Source: a virus. From it: DNA of 31,493 bases. The notes below the pieces were generated by a model that saw only the letters and a program-made list of their open reading frames with translations, was not told the DNA's origin and did no database searches. Below are positions 1,418-30,802 of this stretch, piece by piece. The translations under genes were made by a program, and so were the position numbers. The stretch spans positions 1 through 31,493 of IMG/VR virus record IMGVR_UViG_3300024255_000096, one strand, 5' to 3'. The stretch's first letter is position 1. Every line of letters begins with the position of its first letter.

Positions 1418-1425
1418 TATTTATT
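1418..1425 (-). promoter_or_regulatory. T4-type late promoter box AATAAATA before the 200-aa gene
   Basis: Read on the minus strand, the sequence is AATAAATACAGTATAGGA. AATAAATA matches the T4 late consensus TATAAATA at 7 of 8 positions. It overlaps the stop codon of the giant gene (1421-1423), and the ribosome site follows at once. A start about 7 bases after the box would leave a leader of roughly a dozen bases. The downstream AGTA is shared with the other two late boxes in this window. There is no -35 element, as expected for a gp55-type promoter. In AT-rich DNA a single match is weak. The repeated context makes it more credible. Confidence 0.5.
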
Positions 1426-4400
1426 CAGGTAGCTCAGATGTTCCTGCACGTAAGAATCTTGCAATACTATTTTCTGTATCACCCAATGATTCTCCGAAAG
1501 TTGTCCAGCTTTGTCCTACTTTTTTGACTACTGTTACTTTTGTATCATCTGCTGGTGTTGCTAATAATGTTATTTCATTTGTAGCTGCATCGAATGTAAA
1601 ATCTGCTGCTACTACACTGTCGCCTTCTGGACTATCTAATGCAGTTGCATAGTTAAACACATCTAGTGATGCCTTACGCATACGCACACCGCCCACAAAC
1701 ACTTCAATTTCATTAATTGATGCTACTGGGTAACCAATCTCAAACGTTGCTGTAAGACCGTCTGCGGTTGCATTATATGTTAATGTATTATCCTTATACG
1801 GAACAGTTTTACTTATATTTTGATCAAACACTTTTGTATCTGCTGCATACATATTTTTAACACCAGTACCTAGTGTGCCTCTACGAAGTTGACGTAAAGT
1901 ATTTTCTTCTTTAACAAAATATTCAATACGCTCGCCTTCAATAAATATTACTCCAGGCAAATTTTGTCCTTTGTTTGGTTCTGATAGTGTGCTTGCATTT
2001 TCCAATTCAATCCTTAAATCATAATAATTTAATGGCTGCAACAATTTACTAGAACTTTTATCTAAGCGTTTAAAATGTGTTCTATTTAACATATCTTTAA
2101 ACTGTCTATATGCAAATTTAGATTTACGTACAGTAGCAGTAAAATGTATTATATCAATAACATCATTAGCAGCTGGTTGTTTAACCAATTGAACTTTTAA
2201 CTTGTCGTTACTAACATAATAATCTACACTAGGAGACAATAACTCTCCGTTTACACTTACCCAAACATACTGTGCATCAACAGCCGGTTTACGTAGAGTA
2301 ATTTCACCAACTGTTAGTCTATTATAAGTAACAGTGTCAACATCCTCAGGTATTAATGTAGTTCTCGATACTACATCATAGTTAATACGTTCGATGCCTA
2401 ATATATCATGATTAGTAAATTGTATTACTTCAATCTTTGCGTTATTTTCAGGCGCTGTATCTAATGTTATAGTATTATTATTAATTCTGTAGTCGCCATC
2501 AGTAATAACATACATTTCTAACAAGTCGCCTGGTACACCTGTATCATCTGTAAGAATAATACTACTATTTGTAAGTTCAAATCTCCAATTCAATGGAGTA
2601 AAAATTTCTGCTCCATTAAGGAATATTTTAAGATCTGAAACCGCTATACTTCCTGATGGCATTTGGAATGTTTGTAACGAAAATTCTCTTTGAGTATTTT
2701 GAGGAATAGTATACTGTATATTGTAGCCTGGAGTTAGTATTTTACCATCTACTTTAACAATTGTATTATGCTCAGTTGGAGTAGCATATAATGGTGCGCT
2801 ACCTAATGTAAATACAGCATTTGTTCCGTCACCTGTAAATTCATCTTTAGTAATTTGGCTATAATTAACTTGCTCATCTGCTGAGAACACAGTATAATTA
2901 ATAATTGCTGCGTCTGCAACGACTTCGTCAAATCTAATAACAGTTTTTGAAGTTGTCTCAGATTCAAATGCTACAACAGTTTGTTGTACGCCGTTAATAC
3001 TAGCATAAACAGTAGTATTTAATTCCCAATCAACTGTTGTTTCAAATTCAGTTGTGGATCCATCGCCAACAAATTTTCCAAAATCTAATATATTTTGTGT
3101 TCCTTGTGCAACTGTTACAATGTTAAGTTCTGCTCCTACTGTTGCTGTGTCTAGTGTTACAGTATTAGAAGCCCAATTAACTGTATAATCAGTTTTTGGA
3201 ATTACAACATTGTTAACTTTTACAATGATTGCATCGCTACTATTTGGATTAATTCCTAAATCATAAGTTACAGTATTATCCATAATATAACTTTGACTGT
3301 TAATTACTCCTTGTCCTTCGCCATCTCTTGTATAAACTTTGATATCAAGTGTGTCAAGAATTTGTCCAGGAACAACTTCTTCAGGACCACTAGATGTAGT
3401 AGGTGTAACAAATCCGTCACCATCAACAATAATTTCTTCAGCAGATATACCTCTAGCAGAAGTATATGCTAGGTTGCCACCACTAAGTGCAGTATCATAA
3501 CTATTTTGATCAGGTTGTACACTACCATCACTTGTAGTTTTTCTTACAACAAACACATCGCCGTCTAACAACTCTATTTCTAAATCCTGTACGTAAACTA
3601 CATCAGTTACACCGTCACCTGTAATACTATTTGTAATTGCATTTACGTTAGTAGGAGTGCCTGCAATAAAGTTAGGATCGTCAATTCTTACACCGTTCTT
3701 ATAAAGGTTATAAACAACACCGCTTTCTAACGGAGCACTTAACTGTACCGCAATCGTACTGCCGTCTGCTGTAAATACTTCATCTTCAAATGTACTATCA
3801 AATTCGTCCCAATTATCAGTATACCACGGAGCTGTATCAAACCCTGCAGGACCATCAAAATCGAAGCTACGTACTTCAACTCCGCCATAATCAACTCCAG
3901 ACATTAATTGTGCTAAATCTTTACCATACATTCCTGCAATTGGATTATATGCAAATTTAATTCTATCCTCAGCAGTTAGCATACTCAGTGGAATATTATA
4001 TTCAATACGAATAACTGAATTTAATTTAGGCGGTTTTGTAAATAATACTTTTCCTTGATCTCTAACATAAGTTTTGTCAGTATTTTTAATATTTTCATAT
4101 GTATATTTGCTGCGCAATTGTAGAATATTATCTACATATACATTAACTTTTTTGTTATCTAGATTCATTGGCCATTCGAGGAAGAATCTGTTTTCAAATC
4201 CAGTTCCTGTAAATGTTTCTACTTTAGCAAGAGTATCAAAAGTAAATGTTCCGCTTATTCTATCAAACTTAATTTTAACAAGTGGACTTCTTACAACACC
4301 ATTGCCTAATACTGCTGTTGCTTTTGCTGTAGTTCCTGTTTCTGTTTGTGACCCTGAGATCACAACAGTTGGCGCACTAGTGTAACCACTACCTGGATAT

Positions 4401-7400
4401 GTTACTTTAATACTAGTAATTTTTCCGTATCCTAAATAAGCTTTGGCTTTAGCTCCTGTACCGCCGCCTCCAACTAGTGTAACTACTGGCTCGAATGTAA
4501 ATCCGCTGCCACTGTCGCCGATTTGTATTTCAGTTATTTCATAACCGTAATTATCTCTCCAATTCTTGCGTGGATAGATGCTAGTATCTAAATTTTGTTT
4601 TTCAATGCTGCCATTATTAATAATTGCTTTACTAGGCTGAATAGTTTTACTTTCAAGATCGTAAACTGGAGGAAGATCAAAATCACTAACACTACTATTC
4701 GTAGGATCAATCGCATTGTATTCACTAACAAATTCTCTAACTTTAGTTGAATACGGTTTAAACTCTTCTACAAAATCTTGATAGCTTGCAAGATTGTCGT
4801 TATTAAATGTTATATCTTTTTGATTTAACGATTCTCTATTATGTTTAGCTTTTACAAAACTAGTTTTAAACATCCAATCAACTGATTGCTGTTCAGTCAT
4901 TACATATCGCAAAGCAGCCATAAACAACTGATTATATTCAATTTCTAATTTTCCTACAAATATATTATCTCTAATAGCTTCAAGTATAATTCTTAATTCA
5001 ACACTTGGATTATTATCGTAAAAACTACTATCAAAACTACGGTTATCAAATCCTACAGTATTTTTACCGTAATCGTATAATGTATCTTTAAATTTTATTG
5101 TGCCGTTTTCTCTTCCGATTGTTTCATAATTGATAGTATAATCTTCAGTATCTATATTATTAATTTTTCTTAATAATACCCAGCCGCCAGAGCCAACAGT
5201 TTCAATTTTTACAGTATCGTTTATATTATTTTCTAAACTAGGCAACTGGTAAGATGATTTAATTGTATCATTAATATTTGTAAACTGATTATATCCTGTA
5301 GCATACCAGTCTGCATAATCCCAATATAATTCTACGTTATAACTTTGTAATTTTCTTCTATACCATTCTGTGCCGTTCCATGAATACAACGCCCATTTAT
5401 TTTGTATGCTTTCGTCTGCTCTAATTAATACAGTGAATGGTCTGACAGTTATGCTTGTGTTAGCATCGTATCCAGATCCTTCATTTATTGCGTTAATTGA
5501 AATAATTTGACCTAAGTTGTTAATAGTAGTTTCAAATTCTGCATCTGTACCTTCACCATTAATTTTAAAGACAGGAGCAACTTTATATCCACGTCCTGAA
5601 TCTATAATATTAATTCTAGAAATTCTACCATTGGTAATTACAGGTTCTAATCTAGCAGGAGAAATTTTATTAGTACTTACAAATGTAAGGTCTGCCAATG
5701 TGTCTATTACTAAATCATATTCTCTAGTCAACAGTGTTGGTTGATTGTCCTTTTGGGACAAGCTTGAAATATCGTATTCATCAACTACAAGATTTTCAGA
5801 TAATCTAAGATTTATTCTTTCTATAGTTTGTTTTAGTGCTTCAAATCTATTAACAAACATACTTTGTCTTGGACGATTTTGTATACCATAACGATTTTTA
5901 ACAGTAATTGTAGGATCAGGAACAATTCTTTCATTAGTGTCAAATCCAATTAAACTATCAAACCATTTGCGTTCAATATCAGGATCAGGCTTACTTGCTG
6001 ATAATCCATCAGATATTAATTTATATTGACTGTGTAAATTCTGTGTCTTTTTAGGTCCTGTCGAATATTTAATATTCAGCACAAGGTCATCATTGTCAAC
6101 AAACGTATCAAAATTATTAAGCACAAACTTGTTCTTAGAAAGTAGACTTATGAACGGATATCCTTGTGTTCTTGGATTTTCAATAAGTGCTGTAATATCA
6201 CGGATACTTAATTTTCTGTTTTCCATTACAGGAATTACAGTGCTATTAACTACCCAAAAGAAATACTTGTTACTAAATGTTTTGCTAATTTCATCATAAA
6301 TTACTTTGGTAGAATATCTAGTATCACTAAACAAACTTGTTCCGCTAATTCCGTTAGCTATTCCGTCTGGTGTGTCAGCAATCGAATCTCTAATACTAGG
6401 AATAAAGTTACTTTCGATCCATTCGTAAACGTCAATTCTAGATCCAGGTGCTAGTTTATTCCAATTATTTTTTTGGAATGTAGTTGAACTTTGATACGCA
6501 TGAGTAAATTTAGCACTACTAATATTCCACCATACTTGACCAACGTGTTTATCTGTCCACGTTCTGTTTGGATCAACTGAACTATCTGATATGTTGCCTG
6601 TATTGTAAACTGCAGGATCATAAGGTGTTTTAAATGTAATTTCTTGATCAGCTGGTCCAGCAATTTTTCCTTGCACTGGATCAATGTAATCAATATAACT
6701 TACAATTTGATTTTTGCGTTTATTGTACAAAAATGCTCCACGTATATTATCTACATCTACAGGAGTTATTCCTTCACTAATTACATTCCAAGCAAACACA
6801 CCTTTGTTTTTTCTAAAATCTATTAACTGTCCTTTAGTACTATCGCCAAGAAGTTGATCAGGCATACCAATGTACACATGGTTGTCGTTAGCATAAATGT
6901 TTTCTCCAAAAGTAGTTTGTGTTAACGGATATACAAATTGTTCTGAATATATCAAATTATCTCTAACTGATTCGTATATGTAAACTACACCTTTGTCAAG
7001 TTTTATGTTTGCAAAATTTGTAAAATTATTATCAAATGTTGTTACAACAGTAGAGTTTTCTGATGTATTATCTAAAACGTATTTTGCCAATATCGGATTA
7101 CCGTCTTCGTCTTCTCCTACTTTAGGTTGAGGATCTAACAATTTAGAATGTATATCAAAAGTAGTAGGTATTGTTTGATCGCCATTTAAACTCGATACTA
7201 CTAAGTTGTCTGTACCAAAATCTAATCCAAAACCAAACCCTTCGCTTTCTTCATTTTGCGGTGGTGTTAGTGTCTGTGTTAATACAAACGTACCATTTGT
7301 TTGTGTGTAGATATATACAACACCTTGATTAATTTTGTTAGTATCTACTAACATTGAACTAATTGCAATCTGTGTGCCTTTAGGATTTATTGCAACTTTG

Positions 7401-10400
7401 TCTGCCCAGCTTGTAACATTATCAGGAGCAGATATTATTTGGTCTATTTGGAACTGATCGCCAACTGCACGATAAATTGCAAGTTTTATATTTGTTGTAC
7501 TTGTAACATCAGATTGCTGACTAGTTACAACCAATACTTGTGCATCATTGCTAATATCAAAACTTTTACTAAATTCTAAAATATTTTCAATCGGATCAAA
7601 CACATCTTCGTTATAAAATGCATTTGCTGTTAGATTTGGCAAATAGCCTACATAATCTACGTCTGTGCTTATGCTTGTCCAAGAATTATTTGAACTACTT
7701 GGAATTGCTGCGCCTGTAGCTATATTAGTTACTGCTCGCCATAGTGCATTATCTTGCACAACAACATTATCTTTTTTGTAAGTGTAAGTATTATCAAACA
7801 CTCCTCGATAATTTGAGTCTTTGCCATGCTTCCAACTAATATTAGTCCAATAAATTGGATCTAAGATAACGTTTTGTATCGATGTTGTTGCCTTGCGGCA
7901 AAGATAATAATCATCTTTATATATTACAATATCGCCAATACTGTATGCTCTTAATTGATATTCGCCTCTAAAATTATCAGTTGGTGTTGTGCCATGGCGG
8001 AATATTTCTATCGAGCCAGGATGTATTCTTCTGCCTGTGCTGTCTGTTTCGTTTGCACTAACAACACTATCGGTTCCAACAAGTAATGTGTAATAGCTTC
8101 CAACTTGTGTTATAGAAACTTTTGAACCAAAATGTCTGTTTGCTGCTCTGTATTCTGATACAAGCATATTTTGGAATCTATAAGTACCGTCACGCAGTCT
8201 CCTATAAATTGCAACTGCTCCTTCATTTGGTAAAGTTGCAGATGGCCCTACTTTGTCTGCTGGAACATTATAAATTTGTGTGTAGTCTTTGTTTAGACTA
8301 TAAGGAGGATTAGCAAATCTACGAATACCTGATTCAGTAGTTTCATCAAAGAACCAGTACTCTTCTTCTAAAATTGCAGGTGTTTCTACAACAGAAAAAT
8401 TAGAATCAGCATTAAATACTACCAATTTACCAACTAAAGATGTTCCTAATACTATATCATTGTTAACATCATTTACGACACCAATTACACGATCTGCATC
8501 GGTTGCACCACGTAAAGCAATATTTGCTTTTCTGCGTATATTAAAACGTCCAATATTTGATTGTTCTGTCCATTCTCCGGTTAATATTTTTAGATAAACT
8601 TTAACATCGTTAAAATTACGTTTTATAAACATAACTTCAGCACTACTTGTTGTAATACTAGTTAATGCTAACCCGCCTGCGCCGTCTCTTGGCACTTGTA
8701 CATCTTCAAGAATATCACCAACTTGAGGTTCAAACGCAAATCCTGCAAAATCAAATTCATTTAATTCTAGATTAATATATCCGTCCCATAAATCAGCTAT
8801 AGTTTGTTGTTTGTTTAACATACTATAAGTGAATCCAGTAGCTTCTAGATCAATTATTCTATTATCAAGATTGTATAATCTAAATTCAGTAGTATCTCCA
8901 ATTGTTAGTCCATCGCTAAATGTTTTTCCTGCTCTTACTACAAACTTATTGCTGAGTAAATCTCTTTCTACTCCAGCAATAGCATCTGCTCCTGCAGGAT
9001 CGCCTCTGTATGATAAATTTTCAATATAACTTGCACGATTTTTTTCAGTTACAAATGTTCCGATAGAGCCAACTGTATTTTGAATGTTGTAATACACATT
9101 CAAATCACGTACTGAATCTTGCAACTTAACATCAGAATATACTAAACCTCTGCCTGGATCATAATATGTGCTATTATTTGGATAATCAAACCCAATATTA
9201 ACCATCCAAAAACCAGCAACAGCATCAGTTGTAGCAACAGTTTCTTCTTCTGAATAAAATCCTACGAAATCTAGTTCGTTAATAAACAATTCACCAGTTA
9301 CATTAAAAACACCGTTTGTATTTTTAACATACACAACTGCACTATCTCTTAGGCTGCTTACATAAGCTACTTCAGCACTACCTGTATCTGTTGTTACAAT
9401 ATTGCCTACCTGTGGCAATGATACAAAAGTATTAATAAGGAACACATGGTCAATCTTTTCAACAATTGTATGACTTTGACTTATAACATCTCCTGTAATT
9501 TGCGGAATATTTCCGTCAAATGGTAAGAAGTTTTCAAGTGTAGGATATGCATAGCTGCGCTGATTCCAAAATAGGTTAACAGTATCTCCTATTTTAGTAC
9601 CAATATACATATCTTTAGGAGCGCGGACTAACAAGTGATTTGTTGTACTATTTGGCAACCCAGGGTTGCCTGCAACTAATAAGGTTAATTCTGTGCTATC
9701 AGTATCTGCTGAGCTAGCAATATTTACATATGTGTCAAAAGTACTAAATGGTTGATTGGCAATCTCTGGAAGGATTTCTCTATTAACTTTCCATAAACTT
9801 TCTCTATACCGAACAATATCACTTTTAACATATGTTGCATCTGGTTGAAAATCGAATGTGCTTTGACCTGTGGCTGCATCTGTCTTGTAAGACAAACGAG
9901 TTTTAACATCACTTGCTTGTGGTATACCTGCAATAAGATATTCGCCGTCTGGTGATACTGCAACACTGCTTCCGAAATTCGAATCTACATTATTAAATAA
10001 ATCATTGTCTATAGTAATTTCTTGATCTAATATTAAATTAGACTGTTCTCTAGTTCTGCGATATACAGATATTTTACCATTTTTATCATTCGAAGCTGCT
10101 ACAAATACGTTGTTATTATTTTGGGTAACTGCTACACTATCACTAAATCCTTGATCTGTACTATCGTATTCTGATGGATTAGTAATTATTTGTGAATTTA
10201 AATATACAGCCTTGTTTTCTAATACTGCCCATTCGGAATCATACTTATCAATCCACAATTTTTGATTATCATAGATATCTTGATTAGTAGCATTGTTAGC
10301 TGCTGCAATATTATCTATTCTTATAGTCCTTAATTTAGATACTATAAATTGCTCTTCTAGAAAATCTTTTATCTCATTGTCTAATAAAACCTTTATACGC

Positions 10401-13400
10401 ACAGTATTTAAATTGGTACTATTAATTTCGTATATTCCATTAAGACCGTATGCTTGAGATCCTCTAACGCTAATGTAATCGCCAGCGGAAAACAATCCGT
10501 TAGCCCATTTATCTAATGTTATTTCTACTAATTTTAAGTTGTCATCTGAAAGTTCTGTGATATTAGTGTTTAGACTATTAGCATTTGTATTTGCTTTTAT
10601 TAGTTGCATAACAGACCAACTATTATTGTCAGTATCTGTTACCCAAATAGTGTCTCCTAAACTAATTTGATTAGCATCAATCGATGACAAATCTATCAGA
10701 TTGCTAACAATGAAATCAACATCATTTTCGTTTGTATAACCAGAAGTTTTAATATATTCAGTTTCAATAGTTTTAGTTGGAAACGGTGCATGATTATAAT
10801 CTGCAGGTTTATCAAATACTTCGTTTGGAAGTATTCTATAAATTTTATCAAAGTTAGTTGCTGGCAATGTATTGACAAGTTCTATTGCTTGCGGCGACTC
10901 CTGCATTTTATCTTGTTTTAGATTATATTCTATTTGCTGTACATCATCGACTGCACCATAACGCCCAACTTGAATTGCCCATTCTTCATAAAATTCTAAA
11001 TTATCAGTAGTATTACCTAATGCGTCGAACAGTTTAGTAAACACATTCATCGTGCCTTTGTCTGCAATTGCACCTCTATAGAATTTAAACTGACTTACAT
11101 CGTCATTGATAATGTTAGCAAGGTATTGGCGTTTTTGATAACCTATTAAAAGCTGTGCTGTTTCTTGTTGGCTAATATCAAAACTATCAGAGTCTAAATC
11201 ATAAAAATCAGTAAACTGCGTAACTTTGTAATCAAAGTTAGTCATTAATTGCGACTGCGGTTTTTCACTTAATTGATACCAATTATTAGCATTAAAATTT
11301 TGAGCTCCGGATTGGTTGTTAGTAGCTACATAATAATATTGTTTGTATTTTACAATATCGCCAATTGAATAATCTTTCCATTGTGTCCAATCAGTAAATG
11401 TTGCGTCATCATAAATAAATCCTGGGATATTCAATCCGCCGTTCCAGTTATCTGATCTATAACCATTAACACGAATTCTTTCTTGTCTGTATCCAGTACT
11501 TGGGTTATAAATTGTATCGTTAAAATCTGTGGTATTATCTAGTAATACAACATGTTCTTTTTGTACTAGTGGCAATGCTACATGATATAAACCTTCTTCA
11601 GTGCCTACAGTTTCAATTCCAAAACTATTTTGATCCCGTAACAAACTATTAAATTCTGAATCTAAGAATAATCCGTCTGCTTTAAAAATATTATAACCGT
11701 AAAACTCATCTTTAATATTATCAACAACATAATAATCTCTTTCAAATTCGAGCAAACTAGCAGCAGGACTTAATGCAATTAATGAATTATTTGCCCAGCC
11801 TTGTGTGGTCCAGAATAAAAATTCTTTTGCAGAAGAATTCCAGTTTTCAACACTATTCGATCCTTCTATGACATTTTCAAAACTAAATCCGATTTCTTTT
11901 TGTCTTACGTTATAGCCTAATATAAAATCAACAACATCTTGTGCTGTGTCAAGACGTGTTCCATACTGAAGTTTTTTAACAGTTGTAGTATCGAAATCTT
12001 TCTTAAATTCTGCTGATATGCCGCCTTTTACCGGAAGCTTTGGTATTTTAACTATATCATCAAGAGTAAAAGATATTCCGCTAGTAAAAGAATTAATAAC
12101 CCTATAGTATGTATTGTTGTGTAAAATTACTTCTCCGTTTATGTAAGAAGTGTTTGAATCCCAAGGAACTACTTTTTCAGAAATTCCTCCTACATTTACT
12201 ACACTGAATGACGATCCTGCTTGTGTCTGGTAATATTCAAAATAAGGTTTTTCTAAATTGTATCCTCTTAGGACATACCCTAATTGTGTACGTTCAGCGA
12301 CAATGCCACTATATACAGAAAGTTCTTGTGGACTACTCGTGTTTAAAAATACTTGGTAATTTTCCTGTGGTACAAATATTCCATCTTGCGTTAATGACTG
12401 TGTAGGCGATCTACTATCAAGTATTAGATTAAATTTTTCTTTACTTGTAAATCCTGCAATTTTAATGCCTATTTGGTTTGTAATTTGTGTGATATCTAAT
12501 TTATAATCATTATAAACTTTTAAAATATCGCTTGCTAACAAGTTATAAATGTAATTTACTAAACCAGATGTATTAATTCTAGCGTCTGACTCAGCTGTGT
12601 TTGGAAAATTTAAATCTTTTAGTACAACTGGTTTATTTGTGCTTGCGTCTATCCACTGGTTTGCTAAGTTTTTAGTAATTCTAGATGTATCAAATCCAAG
12701 TCCCATAGTTTTCGCTGGTTTATTTAATACCATTGCTGTCAATACAGCAAACGGATACTCAGAGCTTCGTCTCCATGAATTTTCGTATGGTGTGTGATCG
12801 CCAAATGCAAAGTTTCTAGTTGTGCTTTGTATATTAAAATCAATAATGTATCCACTATCTAAAGGAGATAATAATTTTCCACTACTACTAACCGGTATGT
12901 AATTACTTAACCCAGGTCGAGCATACTTAATATCAATTCTAGTATTGTCAGGATCTGCAATTTTTCCTGCTTCTAAATCTTTCCAAAGTACTAGGTTGTC
13001 GCCGGTATACGGCGCAGGGCCGTACACAGTATTCCACCATGAAGGTTTTGTAGACAGTCCTAACATTTCCCAAGGATGACTGTGAGGACGATCAGTGTCA
13101 AATGCGTCTTTATATATACCTCTCCAAAATCCTAAATTTTTACTATTGTTTGGAGAAAATGTATCTGAATAGTTGAATGTAAAATTGTTATTCTTATCAT
13201 AAAACGTATTATCTGTATAGTTTGGATTATTTAAATTATCTAGTAGCCATTTTTGAAAGTCGCCTAATAACGTGTTATTAATTTCTGTTTTAGTAAATTC
13301 ATTTGTTCTAAATTCGCCGCCAATAAAACTATTAACATCCATTCTATCTGTAGAATATTCAGCTTTAATATTATTAAAAATTCTTTTTTCTAGTTCTAAT

Positions 13401-16400
13401 AATAATTCGTCTCTAAAATCTTTGTATGCTTTAACATAACTGCCATCATGACCTCTAATGAACGCAGCGCCGATTGGGTATTCATCAACTTCAATGTCAT
13501 CGTTGCCAGCAAGTGTTGCACCAGTTGCTGGGATATAAAATAATTTATTCATTCCAACAAATGTGTAAGAGTTTGATGCGTTGCCGCGTCCTGCATCACT
13601 TTTAGTTGTGTAAACAGGATAAAACCATCCTCTATCTCCTGTTACAGTATCTTCGCCGTAAACTTTGAATGGTCCAGATAATTCAGGTTCATCTTGAATA
13701 AGTGTATCATCGATAGTAAGTTCAGGATAGTATTTTGGATATAAGCCTAATTTAGTAGGAGTAGGAGCAATAAAACTACCGTCTGTATTTTCATATTCGT
13801 ATATTTCAATTTTGTCCCCTTCTTGTTGTTGGGCATCGATTGTTATATAACCAGATACATTAAAATTATAATCTTTACCATGAGTTAACAACAGTCCTTC
13901 TAGATATACTAATACACTTTTTACACTCAACTTATCCAAGTTAAATGCAGAAGTTAAAGGATATTCTGTTGTTCTTATATCTAAAACAGTGTACTCAATT
14001 TTATTAGCTTTTCCTGTAGCAACCATATCTGAGAAATAAAACGGTTGAGATTTTACTTTATCATTATTAATTGTTTTTAAAATAAGATCAACATGCTCTT
14101 TTATAGGACCATCGTATCCTAAAGTAGAAGCAGTATCTAAAAATGTTTTCTTAAATCTTGAGTATTCTTTTTTAGAATATTTTAAAGCTTTTATAATATT
14201 ATTAGTTTTAGTAGTTACATGATACAAAGGTAAATTAATAGGACCGCTATGTTTAACAAATCTTTTACCGTAATGATCAAGCTCACCTAAATCTCGTAAA
14301 TTACTTGTTCCAAGAAATTTTCCTGAATAATTTGGTATATCTTCCAACATACTATCAACGTGATCAATAACTTCACCAAGAGTAAATTGGTTGATATCAT
14401 CATTTAATGGATTACGTTCTAAATTATATGGGAACTCATAATATCCGTTGGAATTTTTTATAGTTTTACTATCTGTTTTAATTTTAATAACATCATTGAC
14501 TGTTAAATCTTTTGCAAATATTATAGTTGCATTTTCATTAGTTTTATCAACTGTGTAGTCATCGTTACTTTGTAACTTATTGTTTACAAATACAGCTACC
14601 TTTAAATCAGTTATACTACTTGATTTGTTATAAACATCAATTGCAAAATTATTAACTTTTGTATCAGTTGCACTGTATTCTCTTACAACAAACTGTTTAC
14701 TAATTGTAGGTGTACTACTAAAACCATTTACATAATTAAAATTAGTAAGAGAGGTATATTTCTTTAAATACCCATTGTTAATTTTTTGTTCGAATATATC
14801 AGCTTCTGTTTGATAGGTAAATGTATCGTTTAATAAATTAAAGTTAAAAACAATATCGCCCGTGTTATTAATAGATTTATATTCTAATGCAAATCCTAGT
14901 TCATTATCAATTGTTCCTTCGCCTTGGGCATATGAAAATACTTTGGTGCCTTTGAATGAAGTTGCTGGATAAAATTTAGTATCACTAAAACTATTTTTGT
15001 TTGTATCACACACTTCAAATAACGGAGCTTGGTTCTGTGTTGTTTTTTCTTGCGCAGGTAGCCATACGTTATCGTGATAGTGATAACTTTTACCTGAATT
15101 TTTTACACCTTGTGTAACCAATACTGTTTCAAGATCTATCGGTGTTGTGTCTTCTGTTTCTACTAGACTAATTTGTCTAGTATTGTTAATTTCAACAAAC
15201 TTAACTTGATAAATTTTACCAGCGACCAATACATCTGTATCAGCCGTAAACAAGATGCGCATATTGTCAGCTAAATTAATTCCATCAATATTGTATCCTG
15301 ATTGGCCTTCAATACTGCTAAACACATCAGTAGTAAAAGTATCAATTAAATCGACGTCTTTTTTAGCAACTGCACCAAAATTATTTAATTTTAGTCCTGC
15401 TTCAAATTCAATAATAGGTCGTTTGGCTCTAGTCGATTCGTCTAAATCTCTTGGTAAATGATTAAGGTCAAAACTTTGTTGTATTACATCTCTGTGATGC
15501 CATCTATTGTAGCGGCTCCATGCATTTCTATCAGGAGTTGCACGATTAACAACTACATAATCCTTTTTTGTTGCATATGCACTTGCGTCGCCAAACGGCA
15601 ACGTATCAAAGTTATCGCTATCAAATGCAACTCGCTTTGTATCACTGTATGCAGCTGGAATAGTTAAATCTTGGTCTTTAACTAATTTAATCTTGTCGCC
15701 AACGCCTTCAACATACCAATTATTTGTTTCGTATTCAGTGGGTAAAACATCTCCTTGGAATTTAATTTTCATTCCGTTTGACAATTGTACGCCATTTGCA
15801 CTTAGGTATGTTTTTTTACCTAGTATTTCGTTACCAACATCAAGAAATGAATTTTCTTCGATGTCATAAATGCGCATTTGTCCACTGGTATCTACTGCAT
15901 TTTTACTAATATAATACAACCTATCAGGTGCATTCATTGGAATAGTAAATTCAATGGTGCCTTTTTCAATGTAAGCAATGGCTACTTCTTCGCCTTCTTC
16001 ACCTAACTTACGGATACCGTCAGGGTAAAGCGTTGATACATTATCATCATCTGCAAATGTTACACTGCCGCCGCTTGGAAGAATAATAAACTCACCTTGA
16101 TCATATTCGTTACCGTATAATACAGCGTCAAACAGTCCTTGAGCACGTAGGCCTTCTGAACCTGCTGTTAGTATAGCAGTGCCCGGCGTAAATGTTCTAC
16201 TGATTGCGATAGCTATTGGGTGTCCCGGAGCATCAATTTCAAAACGATATGTTTGTCCCCGGTATAGTTTTAGATTAGGATTACGTGTTAATCCATCATT
16301 AAATACATATGCAACGCTATCACCTTGGTCTTCAGTAGTAACAGTATATGTACTAACAATATCTCTGCTTTGTCCTCTAACAGGAATACTAACAGGCCCG

Positions 16401-16858
16401 TTTGGCATCCAGTAATATTCACGGAAGTTTACAAATTTGTCCCAATCAATGTTTGGGTTCCATGCATAAGTTTCTTGCGAGTTTAAACGACTATGATTTT
16501 CTGTGTTTGCACCAAAAACTCCTAACTGCCCGATATAATCATTGTAATCTTTGTAAAAAGTTACATTGTCATATACGTCTTTAATAACTGTTGCAGGCTC
16601 CAGCTGATAGTTTGTTCTATCATTGGTTACATCATCAACATAATTATCAGAAGTTTTGTACGCCTTAGCAGTAGTTCTACCGTAATAGCCATTAATTTTT
16701 TCTGCAACGCCAGGTTGTATAAGTTGATCTAATGTTCCTTGTAAGAACTTTTTGTTAGCCTGTGTTCTAAAGAACTTAGGTAAAAAATCACTTGCTGTAA
16801 TTTTGTTGTTTTGTCCTGGAACTGGCAGGGCACTTTCGTTCTGATCATTTTTAGCCAT
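1421..16858 (-). CDS. Giant multidomain virion structural protein, 5145 aa, probable baseplate wedge/appendage
   Basis: One uninterrupted frame covers 15.4 kb. The ATG at 16858 shares its A with the TAA of gp6 (TAATG), implying translational coupling. Position right after gp6 matches T4 gene 7 (1032 aa), but I see no clear gp7 similarity, so that equivalence is inferred. Visible parts are: an alpha/beta N-terminus (1-170) with DFLPKFFRTQANKKFLQGTL; a cupredoxin-like beta domain (about 190-330, G212-H-P and NAPDRLYY); five aromatic carbohydrate-binding-like modules near 1564, 1822, 2333, 2967 and 3015; FG-GAP-like repeats between 2238 and about 3350 (for example FGSSVAVSPDGEYLIAG at 2295); Gly/Tyr repeats at 3740-3810 and 4100-4200; and at least eight beta repeats at about 4210-5110, with a GERIEYF...LRRGTLGT block near 4970-5000. 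No transmembrane segment or protease motif was seen. It is most likely a very long baseplate-attached arm or wedge protein. Confidence 0.85.
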   Translation of the reverse strand: MAKNDQNESALPVPGQNNKITASDFLPKFFRTQANKKFLQGTLDQLIQPGVAEKINGYYGRTTAKAYKTSDNYVDDVTNDRTNYQLEPATVIKDVYDNVTFYKDYNDYIGQLGVFGANTENHSRLNSQETYAWNPNIDWDKFVNFREYYWMPNGPVSIPVRGQSRDIVSTYTVTTEDQGDSVAYVFNDGLTRNPNLKLYRGQTYRFEIDAPGHPIAIAISRTFTPGTAILTAGSEGLRAQGLFDAVLYGNEYDQGEFIILPSGGSVTFADDDNVSTLYPDGIRKLGEEGEEVAIAYIEKGTIEFTIPMNAPDRLYYISKNAVDTSGQMRIYDIEENSFLDVGNEILGKKTYLSANGVQLSNGMKIKFQGDVLPTEYETNNWYVEGVGDKIKLVKDQDLTIPAAYSDTKRVAFDSDNFDTLPFGDASAYATKKDYVVVNRATPDRNAWSRYNRWHHRDVIQQSFDLNHLPRDLDESTRAKRPIIEFEAGLKLNNFGAVAKKDVDLIDTFTTDVFSSIEGQSGYNIDGINLADNMRILFTADTDVLVAGKIYQVKFVEINNTRQISLVETEDTTPIDLETVLVTQGVKNSGKSYHYHDNVWLPAQEKTTQNQAPLFEVCDTNKNSFSDTKFYPATSFKGTKVFSYAQGEGTIDNELGFALEYKSINNTGDIVFNFNLLNDTFTYQTEADIFEQKINNGYLKKYTSLTNFNYVNGFSSTPTISKQFVVREYSATDTKVNNFAIDVYNKSSSITDLKVAVFVNNKLQSNDDYTVDKTNENATIIFAKDLTVNDVIKIKTDSKTIKNSNGYYEFPYNLERNPLNDDINQFTLGEVIDHVDSMLEDIPNYSGKFLGTSNLRDLGELDHYGKRFVKHSGPINLPLYHVTTKTNNIIKALKYSKKEYSRFKKTFLDTASTLGYDGPIKEHVDLILKTINNDKVKSQPFYFSDMVATGKANKIEYTVLDIRTTEYPLTSAFNLDKLSVKSVLVYLEGLLLTHGKDYNFNVSGYITIDAQQQEGDKIEIYEYENTDGSFIAPTPTKLGLYPKYYPELTIDDTLIQDEPELSGPFKVYGEDTVTGDRGWFYPVYTTKSDAGRGNASNSYTFVGMNKLFYIPATGATLAGNDDIEVDEYPIGAAFIRGHDGSYVKAYKDFRDELLLELEKRIFNNIKAEYSTDRMDVNSFIGGEFRTNEFTKTEINNTLLGDFQKWLLDNLNNPNYTDNTFYDKNNNFTFNYSDTFSPNNSKNLGFWRGIYKDAFDTDRPHSHPWEMLGLSTKPSWWNTVYGPAPYTGDNLVLWKDLEAGKIADPDNTRIDIKYARPGLSNYIPVSSSGKLLSPLDSGYIIDFNIQSTTRNFAFGDHTPYENSWRRSSEYPFAVLTAMVLNKPAKTMGLGFDTSRITKNLANQWIDASTNKPVVLKDLNFPNTAESDARINTSGLVNYIYNLLASDILKVYNDYKLDITQITNQIGIKIAGFTSKEKFNLILDSRSPTQSLTQDGIFVPQENYQVFLNTSSPQELSVYSGIVAERTQLGYVLRGYNLEKPYFEYYQTQAGSSFSVVNVGGISEKVVPWDSNTSYINGEVILHNNTYYRVINSFTSGISFTLDDIVKIPKLPVKGGISAEFKKDFDTTTVKKLQYGTRLDTAQDVVDFILGYNVRQKEIGFSFENVIEGSNSVENWNSSAKEFLFWTTQGWANNSLIALSPAASLLEFERDYYVVDNIKDEFYGYNIFKADGLFLDSEFNSLLRDQNSFGIETVGTEEGLYHVALPLVQKEHVVLLDNTTDFNDTIYNPSTGYRQERIRVNGYRSDNWNGGLNIPGFIYDDATFTDWTQWKDYSIGDIVKYKQYYYVATNNQSGAQNFNANNWYQLSEKPQSQLMTNFDYKVTQFTDFYDLDSDSFDISQQETAQLLIGYQKRQYLANIINDDVSQFKFYRGAIADKGTMNVFTKLFDALGNTTDNLEFYEEWAIQVGRYGAVDDVQQIEYNLKQDKMQESPQAIELVNTLPATNFDKIYRILPNEVFDKPADYNHAPFPTKTIETEYIKTSGYTNENDVDFIVSNLIDLSSIDANQISLGDTIWVTDTDNNSWSVMQLIKANTNANSLNTNITELSDDNLKLVEITLDKWANGLFSAGDYISVRGSQAYGLNGIYEINSTNLNTVRIKVLLDNEIKDFLEEQFIVSKLRTIRIDNIAAANNATNQDIYDNQKLWIDKYDSEWAVLENKAVYLNSQIITNPSEYDSTDQGFSDSVAVTQNNNNVFVAASNDKNGKISVYRRTREQSNLILDQEITIDNDLFNNVDSNFGSSVAVSPDGEYLIAGIPQASDVKTRLSYKTDAATGQSTFDFQPDATYVKSDIVRYRESLWKVNREILPEIANQPFSTFDTYVNIASSADTDSTELTLLVAGNPGLPNSTTNHLLVRAPKDMYIGTKIGDTVNLFWNQRSYAYPTLENFLPFDGNIPQITGDVISQSHTIVEKIDHVFLINTFVSLPQVGNIVTTDTGSAEVAYVSSLRDSAVVYVKNTNGVFNVTGELFINELDFVGFYSEEETVATTDAVAGFWMVNIGFDYPNNSTYYDPGRGLVYSDVKLQDSVRDLNVYYNIQNTVGSIGTFVTEKNRASYIENLSYRGDPAGADAIAGVERDLLSNKFVVRAGKTFSDGLTIGDTTEFRLYNLDNRIIDLEATGFTYSMLNKQQTIADLWDGYINLELNEFDFAGFAFEPQVGDILEDVQVPRDGAGGLALTSITTSSAEVMFIKRNFNDVKVYLKILTGEWTEQSNIGRFNIRRKANIALRGATDADRVIGVVNDVNNDIVLGTSLVGKLVVFNADSNFSVVETPAILEEEYWFFDETTESGIRRFANPPYSLNKDYTQIYNVPADKVGPSATLPNEGAVAIYRRLRDGTYRFQNMLVSEYRAANRHFGSKVSITQVGSYYTLLVGTDSVVSANETDSTGRRIHPGSIEIFRHGTTPTDNFRGEYQLRAYSIGDIVIYKDDYYLCRKATTSIQNVILDPIYWTNISWKHGKDSNYRGVFDNTYTYKKDNVVVQDNALWRAVTNIATGAAIPSSSNNSWTSISTDVDYVGYLPNLTANAFYNEDVFDPIENILEFSKSFDISNDAQVLVVTSQQSDVTSTTNIKLAIYRAVGDQFQIDQIISAPDNVTSWADKVAINPKGTQIAISSMLVDTNKINQGVVYIYTQTNGTFVLTQTLTPPQNEESEGFGFGLDFGTDNLVVSSLNGDQTIPTTFDIHSKLLDPQPKVGEDEDGNPILAKYVLDNTSENSTVVTTFDNNFTNFANIKLDKGVVYIYESVRDNLIYSEQFVYPLTQTTFGENIYANDNHVYIGMPDQLLGDSTKGQLIDFRKNKGVFAWNVISEGITPVDVDNIRGAFLYNKRKNQIVSYIDYIDPVQGKIAGPADQEITFKTPYDPAVYNTGNISDSSVDPNRTWTDKHVGQVWWNISSAKFTHAYQSSTTFQKNNWNKLAPGSRIDVYEWIESNFIPSIRDSIADTPDGIANGISGTSLFSDTRYSTKVIYDEISKTFSNKYFFWVVNSTVIPVMENRKLSIRDITALIENPRTQGYPFISLLSKNKFVLNNFDTFVDNDDLVLNIKYSTGPKKTQNLHSQYKLISDGLSASKPDPDIERKWFDSLIGFDTNERIVPDPTITVKNRYGIQNRPRQSMFVNRFEALKQTIERINLRLSENLVVDEYDISSLSQKDNQPTLLTREYDLVIDTLADLTFVSTNKISPARLEPVITNGRISRINIIDSGRGYKVAPVFKINGEGTDAEFETTINNLGQIISINAINEGSGYDANTSITVRPFTVLIRADESIQNKWALYSWNGTEWYRRKLQSYNVELYWDYADWYATGYNQFTNINDTIKSSYQLPSLENNINDTVKIETVGSGGWVLLRKINNIDTEDYTINYETIGRENGTIKFKDTLYDYGKNTVGFDNRSFDSSFYDNNPSVELRIILEAIRDNIFVGKLEIEYNQLFMAALRYVMTEQQSVDWMFKTSFVKAKHNRESLNQKDITFNNDNLASYQDFVEEFKPYSTKVREFVSEYNAIDPTNSSVSDFDLPPVYDLESKTIQPSKAIINNGSIEKQNLDTSIYPRKNWRDNYGYEITEIQIGDSGSGFTFEPVVTLVGGGGTGAKAKAYLGYGKITSIKVTYPGSGYTSAPTVVISGSQTETGTTAKATAVLGNGVVRSPLVKIKFDRISGTFTFDTLAKVETFTGTGFENRFFLEWPMNLDNKKVNVYVDNILQLRSKYTYENIKNTDKTYVRDQGKVLFTKPPKLNSVIRIEYNIPLSMLTAEDRIKFAYNPIAGMYGKDLAQLMSGVDYGGVEVRSFDFDGPAGFDTAPWYTDNWDEFDSTFEDEVFTADGSTIAVQLSAPLESGVVYNLYKNGVRIDDPNFIAGTPTNVNAITNSITGDGVTDVVYVQDLEIELLDGDVFVVRKTTSDGSVQPDQNSYDTALSGGNLAYTSARGISAEEIIVDGDGFVTPTTSSGPEEVVPGQILDTLDIKVYTRDGEGQGVINSQSYIMDNTVTYDLGINPNSSDAIIVKVNNVVIPKTDYTVNWASNTVTLDTATVGAELNIVTVAQGTQNILDFGKFVGDGSTTEFETTVDWELNTTVYASINGVQQTVVAFESETTSKTVIRFDEVVADAAIINYTVFSADEQVNYSQITKDEFTGDGTNAVFTLGSAPLYATPTEHNTIVKVDGKILTPGYNIQYTIPQNTQREFSLQTFQMPSGSIAVSDLKIFLNGAEIFTPLNWRFELTNSSIILTDDTGVPGDLLEMYVITDGDYRINNNTITLDTAPENNAKIEVIQFTNHDILGIERINYDVVSRTTLIPEDVDTVTYNRLTVGEITLRKPAVDAQYVWVSVNGELLSPSVDYYVSNDKLKVQLVKQPAANDVIDIIHFTATVRKSKFAYRQFKDMLNRTHFKRLDKSSSKLLQPLNYYDLRIELENASTLSEPNKGQNLPGVIFIEGERIEYFVKEENTLRQLRRGTLGTGVKNMYAADTKVFDQNISKTVPYKDNTLTYNATADGLTATFEIGYPVASINEIEVFVGGVRMRKASLDVFNYATALDSPEGDSVVAADFTFDAATNEITLLATPADDTKVTVVKKVGQSWTTFGESLGDTENSIARFLRAGTSELPE
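1520..4222 (-). repeat. C-terminal beta-repeat array of the giant protein
   Basis: These are protein-level repeats at residues about 4210-5110 of the giant protein. The unit reads roughly F-x-G-D-G-x-T-x-x-F-x-L ... V-x-V-x-V-N-G-V ... Y-x-V ... I-x-F/L-x-x-A-P-x-x-x-A-x-I-x-I-x-Y. Clear copies begin EEF/DEF-TGDGTNAVFTLG, FVGDGSTTEFETTV, FTGTGFENRFFLEW and NATADGLTATFEIG, with weaker copies between them. At least eight can be picked out by eye. Similar units occur in phage fibre and appendage proteins, where they form strings of small beta-sandwich domains. DNA identity between copies is low, so the duplications are old. Confidence 0.65.
6810..10147 (-). repeat. FG-GAP-like propeller repeats in the giant protein
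   Basis: Protein-level repeats are anchored at F2238 (FSDSVAV), F2295 (FGSSVAVSPDGEYLIAG), F2910 (FGSKVSI), W3151 (WADKVAINPKGTQIAIS), about 3208 (FGFGLDFGTDNLVVSS) and about 3316 (FGENIYANDNHVYIG). Each is followed or preceded by a strand of the type G-x-V/I-x-I/V-Y/F-x-R/E. This is the FG-GAP / integrin-type beta-propeller blade pattern. About 600 residues separate blades 2 and 3 and hold aromatic binding-like modules and other beta segments, so the propeller would be interrupted by large insertions. Confidence 0.55.
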
Positions 16859-27641: not shown

Positions 27642-27941
27642 TTAGAATCCTAATGTATTGCGTAAAGAAGTTGGATCAGGTAAGTAAATTTTGGTACCAG
27701 CTACAAAATCAAATACAGGATCTTTAAGAATATCCATATTTCTCTGTGCAAATACCCACCAAAGTTGTCTGCGTCCGTAGGTAATATGAGCAAGTAAATC
27801 AGGACGATATGTATATTCGGAAGTTATTTCAAATAATATATCATCTCTATTAATTGGCACCGGTCTCGGAGACAATACATCTAAATATCCGTTTTTGTTT
27901 ATAGGAGTTCGAAAATATGGACTTAAATTATTTGGCTGCAT
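27642..27941 (-). CDS. 53: Baseplate wedge subunit gp53 (LysM-like)
   Basis: The 99-residue protein contains LFEITSEYTYRPDLLAHITY, GRRQLWWVFAQRNMDILKDP and a G-T-K-I-Y-L-P exit. This is the LysM-like order found in gp53 and related tail proteins: a beta strand, a helix ending at a Tyr-Gly, the L-W-W motif, an N-x-I/D-P turn and a final G-x-x-I-x-L/I-P strand. T4 gp53 has 196 aa, so this is a compact form covering the core. gp53 completes the baseplate wedge and clamps it around the central hub. The start overlaps the stop of the gp48-like gene (TAATG), and the next ATG follows its stop after one base, so three genes appear translationally coupled. A generic LysM tail protein is the only close alternative. 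Confidence 0.8.
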   Translation of the reverse strand: MQPNNLSPYFRTPINKNGYLDVLSPRPVPINRDDILFEITSEYTYRPDLLAHITYGRRQLWWVFAQRNMDILKDPVFDFVAGTKIYLPDPTSLRNTLGF

Positions 27942-28795: not shown

Positions 28796-28818
28796 AATTA
28801 TATTGTCTCCTATACTAC

Positions 28819-28826
28819 TATTTAGT
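28819..28826 (-). promoter_or_regulatory. T4-type late promoter box ACTAAATA at the head of the baseplate operon
   Basis: On the minus strand the sequence is ACTAAATAGTAGTATAGGAG, leading straight into the ribosome site and the gp48-like ATG. It resembles the T4 late box TATAAATA and shares the AGTA two bases downstream with the gp6 box. It touches, on the opposite strand, the -35 element of the gp55 promoter (28826-28831). The operon therefore seems to start with a promoter that would be read by the product of the divergent gene. Confidence 0.55.
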
Positions 28827-28854
28827 TGACAAAATTAACATAGTATATTATAAT
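28826..28854 (+). promoter_or_regulatory. Host sigma70-type promoter for gp55
   Basis: A perfect TTGACA at 28826-28831 and a perfect TATAAT at 28849-28854 are separated by exactly 17 bp, the optimum for bacterial housekeeping sigma. The gp55 ATG follows at 28879 with AGGAGA at 28868-28873, giving a short leader. A full consensus match with ideal spacing is very unlikely by chance. It implies early expression by unmodified host RNA polymerase. Confidence 0.88.
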
Positions 28855-28857
28855 ATA
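28844..28857. repeat. Perfect 14-bp palindrome over the gp55 -10 element
   Basis: TATATTATAATATA at 28844-28857 equals its own reverse complement and contains the TATAAT. GTTAA at 28859-28863 also mirrors TTAAC at 28835-28839. It could be a dimer-binding operator or an easily melted AT tract. In AT-rich DNA such palindromes occur by chance, so the functional reading is weak. Confidence 0.45.
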
Positions 28858-28878
28858 AGTTAACTATAGGAGAAACCG

Positions 28879-29727
28879 ATGCGCCCCAAGAATTATCTGA
28901 ACAATAAAGATATATTAAAAGAGATACATAAATCTAAAAATAAGTTTAATAGCTATACAGCAGAAGAACATGGTCATTACGATATCATTTTACCAAGTGT
29001 AGACAAAATTAACAGGTTAACTGTTGCAGAAGCAAAACGCAACAAAGCAAAAAAGCTTTCATCTGCAGAGTATGAACGCAGAAAAGGACTAGGTCATAAA
29101 GTTAAACAAGCAGAATGTGAGACTAAGCCTACAGAAATTACAAAAGAAGAATTAATCTTCCGTATAATGACATTTGATCATATACCAGACGAGCCTGGAC
29201 GCAAAAAGAACCCAAAGACTGTAGCTGACACAAAGGTTAAACTTCCTTTTCCGCCATTTCAGCATTACAAGTACAATGACGAAGGTGAAATTATCCTAGT
29301 AGGCAAAAGTCATTGGGTAGGCGGTATGGACAACGGTCATTTTAGTCATAAACACGGTAAGGCAACTGAAAAACTTGCTATGATGTGGTTAAAACTTGTT
29401 GACAGATATGCTACTCGTGGCAATGTACGTGGATATACATACAATGACGAAATGAAAGGTCAAGCAATCTTGCAACTATCACAGATTGGCTTGCAATTTG
29501 ACGAATCTAAGTCAGATAATCCATTTGCATACTATACAGCCGCAGTTACCAACAGTTTTGTACGTGTTATCAACATTGAAAAGCGCAATCAGAACATCAG
29601 AGACGATATTCTTGAAATGAATGACTTGAGTCCAAGTTATACAAGACAAAATGCAGGCGAATGGGAAGCAAGTGTGAAGCGAAACGAAGACGCTGCACCT
29701 ACTGCATACACTGGCACCAAAAAATAG
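28879..29727 (+). CDS. 55: Late-promoter sigma factor gp55, with large internal insertion
   Basis: gp55 replaces host sigma on RNA polymerase and directs it to late promoters. The start KNYLNNKDILKEI matches the N-terminal block of T4 gp55 (YNYVNNKELLQAI). The sigma region-2-like core lies at about 160-245: KLAMMWLKLVDRY, RGYTYNDEMKGQAI, LQFDESKSDNPFAYYTAAVT and FVRVINIEKRNQ align well with the T4 protein. Between these, residues about 21-150 form an insertion absent from T4 gp55 (185 aa). It is basic and helical at first (AEAKRNKAKKLSSAEYERRK), then Pro-rich (KLPFPPFQHY). The C-terminus (AAPTAYTGTKK) lacks the hydrophobic, acidic SLDFLYE-type tail that binds the sliding clamp in T4. The ATG at 28879 has AGGAGA 5 bases upstream and a consensus sigma70 promoter, so it is probably expressed early. 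Confidence 0.9.
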   Translation: MRPKNYLNNKDILKEIHKSKNKFNSYTAEEHGHYDIILPSVDKINRLTVAEAKRNKAKKLSSAEYERRKGLGHKVKQAECETKPTEITKEELIFRIMTFDHIPDEPGRKKNPKTVADTKVKLPFPPFQHYKYNDEGEIILVGKSHWVGGMDNGHFSHKHGKATEKLAMMWLKLVDRYATRGNVRGYTYNDEMKGQAILQLSQIGLQFDESKSDNPFAYYTAAVTNSFVRVINIEKRNQNIRDDILEMNDLSPSYTRQNAGEWEASVKRNEDAAPTAYTGTKK

Positions 29728-29743
29728 GTTGACAAGTGTCAAC
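29728..29743. repeat. Inverted repeat overlapping the gp47 -35 element
   Basis: GTTGACA-AG-TGTCAAC has perfect 7-bp arms around a 2-bp centre, with TTGACA as the promoter -35 box. It starts right after the gp55 stop codon. The two-base centre is too short for a stable RNA hairpin loop, so a DNA-binding dimer site is the more likely role if it has one. Confidence 0.55.
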
Positions 29744-29757
29744 ATTTACTATATACT
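29729..29757 (+). promoter_or_regulatory. Host sigma70-type promoter for gp47-gp46
   Basis: TTGACA at 29729-29734 and TATACT at 29752-29757 are 17 bp apart. The -10 differs from consensus at one position. It lies in the 58-base gap between gp55 and gp47, with the gp47 ribosome site about 17 bases downstream. Same architecture as the gp55 promoter, which supports an early class read by host polymerase. Confidence 0.78.
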
Positions 29758-29785: not shown

Positions 29786-30802
29786 TTGTTTAAGAAAGCT
29801 GCGGTTTTTACAGACATTCATTTTGGTTTAAAAGGCAATAGTCGGGTTCACAACGAAGATTGCGAGGAATTTATTGATTGGTACATAGAACAAGCACAAG
29901 CTGCCGGTTGCGAGACCGGTATCTTCTGCGGAGACTGGCATCATAATCGTAATTCACTTAATCTTACCACTATGGATGCAACAATTCGTTGTATGGAAAA
30001 GCTAGGTGCTGCATTTGAGAAGTTTTACTTCTTTGACGGTAATCACGATTTGTATTATAAAGACAAACGTGACGTTAACAGTACAGCATTTGCAAAACAC
30101 ATCCCAGGTATTACGTTTGTAGACGAAATTCTTATTGAGGATGATGTTGCACTTGTGCCTTGGCTTGTAGGAGATGAGTGGAAGAAGATGAGCGATATTA
30201 AAACAAAGTATTTGTTTGGTCACTTTGAACTTCCTAGCTTTTATATGAACGCACTAGTAAGAATGCCAGATCACGGTGATCTAAAGCCCGAGCATTTCAA
30301 GCATCAAGACTATGTTTTTAGTGGACACTTCCATAAAAGACAGAAGCAAGGTGCTATTCACTACATCGGTAATGCATTTCCGCACAACTATGCTGATGTA
30401 GGCGATGATGAACGTGGTATGATGATACTTGATAAAGAAAATAACAAAGAACCAGAGTTTATTGACTGGCCAAACTGTCCTAAGTATCGTACTGTGACAC
30501 TCAGTCATCTAATCGACAACGCAGATACCTTTATTAAGAGTAAAATGTACTTGCGTGTTACATTGGACTTGCCTATCAGTTATGAAGAAGCAAGTTTTAT
30601 CAAAGAAACATTTATTAACCAGTACAACTGCCGTGAAATTACGCTAATACCACAAAAACAGTTAGAAGAAATGAGTACAGAGCTCGATATTGCACAATTT
30701 GAAAGTGTAGATCAAATTGTAAGTAATGAAATATCACAACTAGACACAAACAACTACGATAAAAGTATGTTGCTGCAAATATATAATGGACTAGAATCAT
30801 AA
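29786..30802 (+). CDS. 47: Recombination nuclease subunit gp47 (Mre11/SbcD type)
   Basis: gp47 is the phosphoesterase half of the gp46-gp47 complex that resects DNA ends for recombination-dependent replication and host DNA degradation. The protein has 338 aa, almost identical in length to T4 gp47 (339). All metal-binding motifs are intact: D10-x-H12 (VFTDIHFG), G-D50 (IFCGDWHH), G-N86-H87-D88, G-H146-F-E and G-H181-F-H183. The C-terminal part (about 230-338) is a helical/beta cap that contacts gp46. It starts with TTG at 29786 behind a strong GGAGG, an uncommon start that may limit its level relative to gp46. One base (T) separates its TAA from the gp46 ATG (TAATATG). A sigma70-type promoter and an inverted repeat lie upstream. 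Confidence 0.95.
   Translation: MFKKAAVFTDIHFGLKGNSRVHNEDCEEFIDWYIEQAQAAGCETGIFCGDWHHNRNSLNLTTMDATIRCMEKLGAAFEKFYFFDGNHDLYYKDKRDVNSTAFAKHIPGITFVDEILIEDDVALVPWLVGDEWKKMSDIKTKYLFGHFELPSFYMNALVRMPDHGDLKPEHFKHQDYVFSGHFHKRQKQGAIHYIGNAFPHNYADVGDDERGMMILDKENNKEPEFIDWPNCPKYRTVTLSHLIDNADTFIKSKMYLRVTLDLPISYEEASFIKETFINQYNCREITLIPQKQLEEMSTELDIAQFESVDQIVSNEISQLDTNNYDKSMLLQIYNGLES

Follow-up and report, generated by a model that had tools for sequence, protein, structure and literature searches.

The 83 bases that separate the gene for a gp55-family late sigma factor from a leftward operon of baseplate genes contain two promoters of different type, set back to back and joined at a single base. They lie in a fragment of viral DNA of 31,493 nucleotides, the whole of which was analysed and is referred to here as the window. 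As judged from sequence, the pairing of a gp55 promoter with a baseplate promoter is strongly conserved across a large family of relatives of giant phages, and it appears to be a real regulatory module, assembled from known parts and apparently undescribed. We consider it probable that the spacer is a compact two-way promoter used by two mutually exclusive holoenzymes, and that it hands over from one direction to the other with feedback on gp55.

Table 1. Coordinates of the two-way promoter, its component elements and the neighboring genes in the window.
Feature	Position	Strand	Basis
gp55 late sigma factor, 282 aa	28879..29727	+	phrog_12791, 2.7e-73; 7d7c_F
First leftward gene, virion structural protein, 284 aa	27941..28795	-	phrog_12050, 1.1e-37
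Baseplate wedge subunit (gp53-like), second gene of the operon	27642..27941	-	phrog_7145, 1.6e-22
gp47 (SbcD-like), downstream of gp55	29786..30802	+	phrog_100, 1.3e-67
gp55 promoter, -35 hexamer TTGACA	28826..28831	+	sequence; TTGAC invariant in 91 distinct spacers
gp55 promoter, 17-nt spacer AAATTAACATAGTATAT	28832..28848	+	WWW-TTA (also given as WWWW-TTA) and GTA conserved
gp55 promoter, -10 hexamer TATAAT	28849..28854	+	sequence
Predicted early transcription start, about +1	28861	+	inferred, 7 nt past the last -10 base
Late box ACTAAATA, positions -13 to -6	28819..28826	-	sequence and comparison
Predicted late +1, sixth nt after the box	28813	-	T4 geometry; Shine-Dalgarno edge; leaderless relatives
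Shine-Dalgarno AGGAG of the leftward gene, inside the predicted leader	28807..28811	-	
gp47 promoter TTGACA-17-TATACT, host-type	29729-29757	+	

Sequence and modelled fold together confirm the product of the rightward gene as a late sigma factor of the gp55 family. The protein matches region 2 of T4 gp55 (7d7c_F) with an E-value of 1.2e-4, and its structure model aligns with T4 gp55 in 7d7c at a Foldseek probability of 1.00 (1.4 Å over 88 columns, E 3.3e-3). No sigma region 4 was seen in the model. In this lineage gp55 has about 140 additional N-terminal residues, which fold confidently in the model, and a C-terminal tail that the alignment shows to be short, polar and variable, with no hydrophobic end seen for clamp binding; a search for the sliding clamp with PF02916 gave no match, and the controls likewise gave none. 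The first three leftward genes encode, in order, a virion structural protein, a baseplate wedge protein and a second structural protein, and they are followed by one gene with no family match and by genes for a hub/lysozyme, a gp25-type and a gp6-type wedge protein. The structural operon also holds a single leftward open reading frame of 5145 codons (1421-16858). On the other side of gp55, the -35 hexamer of the gp47 promoter sits inside a perfect 16-bp inverted repeat, GTTGACAAGTGTCAAC (GTTGACA...GTCAAC, 29728-29743); many relatives retain the promoter, but in them the inverted repeat decays.

The spacer extends from the leftward start codon at 28795 to the gp55 start at 28879. The initial annotation had placed a perfect early promoter upstream of gp55, reading rightward, and this is borne out by the sequence: TTGACA-17-TATAAT agrees with the sigma70-type consensus at 12 of 12 positions and is the only such site within the 31-kb window. 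Sites with at most one mismatch number three in the window, against 0.97 expected; the gp55 promoter thus exceeds chance, though taken alone it is not overwhelming. The late-type box proposed for the leftward operon is unremarkable by the statistics of the window, where ACTAAATA is found once against 3.7 occurrences expected, a weak and non-significant result that makes comparison with relatives necessary; that comparison, set out below, upholds the box. The box possesses the TAAATA core of T4-type late promoters and is identical to T4 TATAAATA at six of eight positions, the mismatches falling at -13 and -12, where the window has A and C in place of the TA of a full T4 match. The contact between the two elements is likewise as first described: the -35 hexamer begins with base 28826, a T that doubles as position -13 of the late box and is the one base common to both. 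With T4 spacing, the predicted late leader is 18 nt long.

Evidence that the leftward box is a late promoter comes from the clade as a whole. Hexamer bias was assessed in 198 upstream regions taken from eight related contigs and the window. TAAATA proved to be the most strand-biased hexamer before genes (81 sense and 23 antisense, of 198), and ATAAATA was found 52 times in sense and 10 times in antisense orientation, from which we conclude that the clade uses T4-type late boxes. The base at -12 of these boxes is A in 49 cases and C in 17, of 80. A GCTAAATA box also precedes a baseplate gene at 20388 in the window, with apparent counterparts in related contigs. The leftward leader bears indirectly on the predicted late start: among the 78 distinct spacers that have a Shine-Dalgarno sequence, it begins at least 5 nt past the box in 76 and 4 nt past it in the other two, and in three relatives (L279, L292 and L296) the leftward gene is apparently leaderless, its ATG standing exactly at the +1 predicted from T4. 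Together these data support the box as a T4-family late promoter of the baseplate operon; putative start sites lie near 28813 for late and 28861 for early transcription.

An alternative is that TATTTAG belongs to the gp55 promoter itself, as an UP-like upstream part, and is no late box. The alpha C-terminal domains of polymerase contact strong promoters in the region upstream of the -35 hexamer, which is where this AT-rich sequence is located. However, the other strong host-type promoters of the same eight contigs have no TATTTA adjoining the -35. The same is true of a second host-type promoter in L008, L010, L011, L012 and L015, which follows the composite promoter in tandem on the way to gp55 and is without a late box. 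Moreover, the strand bias of TAAATA extends to genes in general, and both the edge of the Shine-Dalgarno positions and the cases of ATG at +1 are set by a box on the opposite strand. We find the UP-like reading barely credible.

To examine conservation, loci were collected from viral contigs solely on the basis of gp55 protein similarity, which yielded 137 loci with 91 distinct spacers. In all 137 the best promoter upstream of gp55 matches sigma70 at 11 or 12 of 12 positions and has a spacer of exactly 17, and in all 137 TATTTA (TAAATA when read leftward) adjoins the -35, at a gap of 1 bp in 84 loci and of 0 bp in 53. Among the 91 distinct spacers no variation occurs in the columns TATTTA(G)TTGAC, while the leaders on either side vary. 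Mean pairwise identity is 0.86 in the promoter block, compared to 0.46 at four-fold-degenerate codon sites of gp55. In a sister clade the two elements stand one base closer together and both persist, a further sign that the leftward box is a late promoter; the box there has the sequence AATAAATA and shares two bases with the -35. Sequence and comparison thereby establish both elements, the fixed geometry and conservation of the pair, and its location between gp55 and the baseplate genes.

Each spacing class comes close to forming one clade in a quick gp55 tree (10 changes for 10 groups), which points to shared descent and means that the 137 loci cannot be counted as that many independent events. 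This raises the possibility that the geometry reflects nothing but compactness and descent: the two promoters would be used at separate times, their overlap would have no regulatory role, and early transcription would be shut off by other means before the gp55 polymerase appears. That the spacing classes follow the tree with almost no reversals is in keeping with this explanation, as are the dense coding throughout and the widespread occurrence of cousins in which 36 bp separate the elements. If compactness alone were responsible, however, drift would be expected, and none of the 137 clade loci has drifted from the gap of 0 or 1 bp, even though the flanks vary freely. We therefore regard this explanation as possible but somewhat unlikely.

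The motif itself is largely confined to this one location. In a scan of viral contigs with TATTTAGTTGACNNNNTTAA, 106 of the 115 matches listed lie directly upstream of gp55 genes, at 52-93 nt and with identity down to 63%; the remaining matches among those listed comprise four at contig ends, in the same place, and five elsewhere. The full motif has at most one copy per contig. We accordingly rejected the idea of a generic early promoter, given that copy number and the presence of other host-type promoters lacking TATTTA.

The geometry suggests how the two promoters may work. Rightward, host polymerase with the housekeeping sigma factor would use TTGACA-17-TATAAT to transcribe gp55, followed by gp47 and gp46, ahead of late transcription. 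In the leftward direction the host core enzyme, with gp55 bound, would use ACTAAATA, a late-box variant with C at -12, to transcribe the baseplate operon. The early -35 corresponds to late positions -13 to -18 and the early -10 to late positions -36 to -41, while the late box covers early positions -35 to -42. Since these positions overlap, a polymerase at one promoter should exclude a polymerase at the other. For scale, the open complex of T4 gp55 is melted from -12 to +2, and the T4 clamp brings 13 bp more of upstream protection. The initial annotation had envisaged that late sigma bound at the box would cover the early -35, so that gp55 would turn off its own early promoter. The covering agrees with the geometry, but the occlusion should be reciprocal and not one-way. 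Once the gp55 holoenzyme has been made and binds the spacer, the simplest result would be a hand-over in which baseplate synthesis takes the place of gp55 synthesis and gp55 is subject to negative feedback; start sites, timing, exclusion in the cell and feedback are all features that we infer from the arrangement of the DNA. That gp55 shuts off its own early promoter is plausible. A simple and universal self-shutoff, on the other hand, is disfavored by the reciprocal blocking, by late boxes that face rightward, by the 36-bp cousins and by additional conserved bases in the spacer.

The rightward late boxes lend themselves to an opposite interpretation, namely that the gp55 polymerase also transcribes gp55 late, giving a positive loop and not a shutoff. 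Among the 62 distinct relatives with a one-base gap, the -10 of gp55 is fused with a late box facing rightward, TATAATAAATA, in 11, compared to 3.5 expected from column frequencies, and the fusion accounts for seven changes on the tree; a box in this position would allow gp55 to direct late transcription of its own gene. The carriers are L022, L024, L028, L035, L036, L038, L039, L042, L045, L048 and L053. Between the -10 and the gp55 start, the 91 distinct spacers contain 14 rightward boxes and no leftward ones, and a rightward GATAAATA stands upstream of gp55 in several PA5oct-like loci. Yet rightward TAAATA is absent from 28849-28879 in the window and from the corresponding region of most relatives, and a positive loop in place of shutoff seems to us quite improbable.

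The hand-over reading leaves part of the conservation unaccounted for. At the same 44 loci the spacer of the gp55 promoter carries 1.38 bits per column, compared to 0.74 for that of the gp47 promoter, at a distance of about 900 bp, the WWWW-TTA and GTA positions standing well above the latter; upstream of the -35 the corresponding values are 1.80 and 1.06 bits. Conservation of the spacer exceeds what a sigma70 or gp55 holoenzyme, as these are understood, would need. A T4 late promoter has no requirement for upstream sequence, and gp55 therefore does not explain it. The extra conserved bases may mark a third protein that acts there. Taken further, the conserved block could be mainly the site of another phage or host regulator, lying over the -35 and the first half of the spacer, around which both promoters have been built. 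However, each contig has a single copy of the full motif, an unusual number of sites for a regulator acting phage-wide; the inverted repeat that GTTGACAAAATTAAC may form is imperfect, with a variable right half; and no candidate protein was identified. We judge it unlikely that a regulator site is the main cause of the conservation. As a strict inverted repeat, the operator dyad GTTGACAAAATTAAC is unsupported, with bases in the right half divided A43/T19 and C32/G29.

Beyond the clade, the order baseplate operon, gp55, gp47 and gp46, with divergence at gp55, is found in PA5oct, Atu_ph07, RaK2, 121Q, GAP32 and Vibrio phage 2.275. In a cyanophage gp55 is co-oriented with its neighbors, and the divergent order is thus not general. 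The gp55 of Atu_ph07 is 40% identical; its locus holds TATTTAGTTGACAAATTAAC with no TATAAT 17 bp on, and a search with this protein as query matched itself alone. In the group of 121Q, RaK2 and GAP32 the late box lies a few bp from the -35. In PA5oct-like loci GATAAATA is 36 bp from the -35 in most cases with a called -35, which indicates that the wider lineage can do without tight occlusion. One might picture a composite hand-over promoter kept throughout a lineage of jumbo-type phages, an element of about 36 bp shared by the late sigma gene and its first target operon and serving two holoenzymes on opposite strands, in which a third factor, marked by the conserved spacer, would time the exchange; this reading strikes us as doubtful.

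The components have clear counterparts. T4 late promoters have a TAAATA core at -11 to -6 and require no -35 (accessible text of PMC2988020 and PMC7892883). As far as that text extends, the system in the window resembles T4 gp55/gp33/gp45 in its TAAATA core and in a gp55-family sigma factor with a region-2 domain, and a start 6 nt past the box would fit; it differs in having C and not A at -12, and in the long N-terminal addition and short C-terminus of its gp55. The same text makes no mention for T4 of a divergent fusion with the early promoter of gp55 itself. The late promoters of Aeh1 are CTAAATA, of R-C-TAAATA type (PMC1524935), and the window box likewise has C at -12 and R at -13, although in the window clade A is commoner than C at -12 and both forms coexist. 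For CBB and GAP32, the accessible portion of PMC5259590 predicts an ATAAATA late motif before structural genes, together with a promoter of RpoD-like type immediately upstream of gp55, and passes no comment on their pairing. GAP32 has the same gene order as the window; CBB and GAP32 differ in a -35 of TGAAACG type and a gap that is a few bp wider. Our literature search, whose scope left out subscription papers and any PA5oct transcriptome, found no description of the present arrangement.

Overlapping divergent promoters act as a switch at lambda pR/pRM. The conjugation switch of pLS20 is of this kind too (PMC4207663, accessible text). In these systems, so far as the available accounts describe them, polymerase bound at either promoter can shut out the other, as we propose here; they rely on repressors and one holoenzyme, whereas the two-way promoter would rely on two sigma factors, one of which is the product of the controlled gene itself. 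Outside T4, little has been described of how T4-family phages set the amount and timing of late sigma. This minimal promoter, preserved with single-base precision in many marine phages, links the late sigma gene to one likely first target, and the spacer offers a small DNA fragment on which competition between sigma factors can be studied.

The motif also provides a DNA signature for the lineage in metagenomes: 110 of the 115 matches listed, including the four at contig ends, are at gp55. Two matches to a longer pattern (L391 and L392) fall on contigs of 335 kb and 153 kb that were binned as a Neomarinimicrobiota MAG. On the 335-kb contig the composite promoter has the same flanking genes, and both are probably phage contigs.
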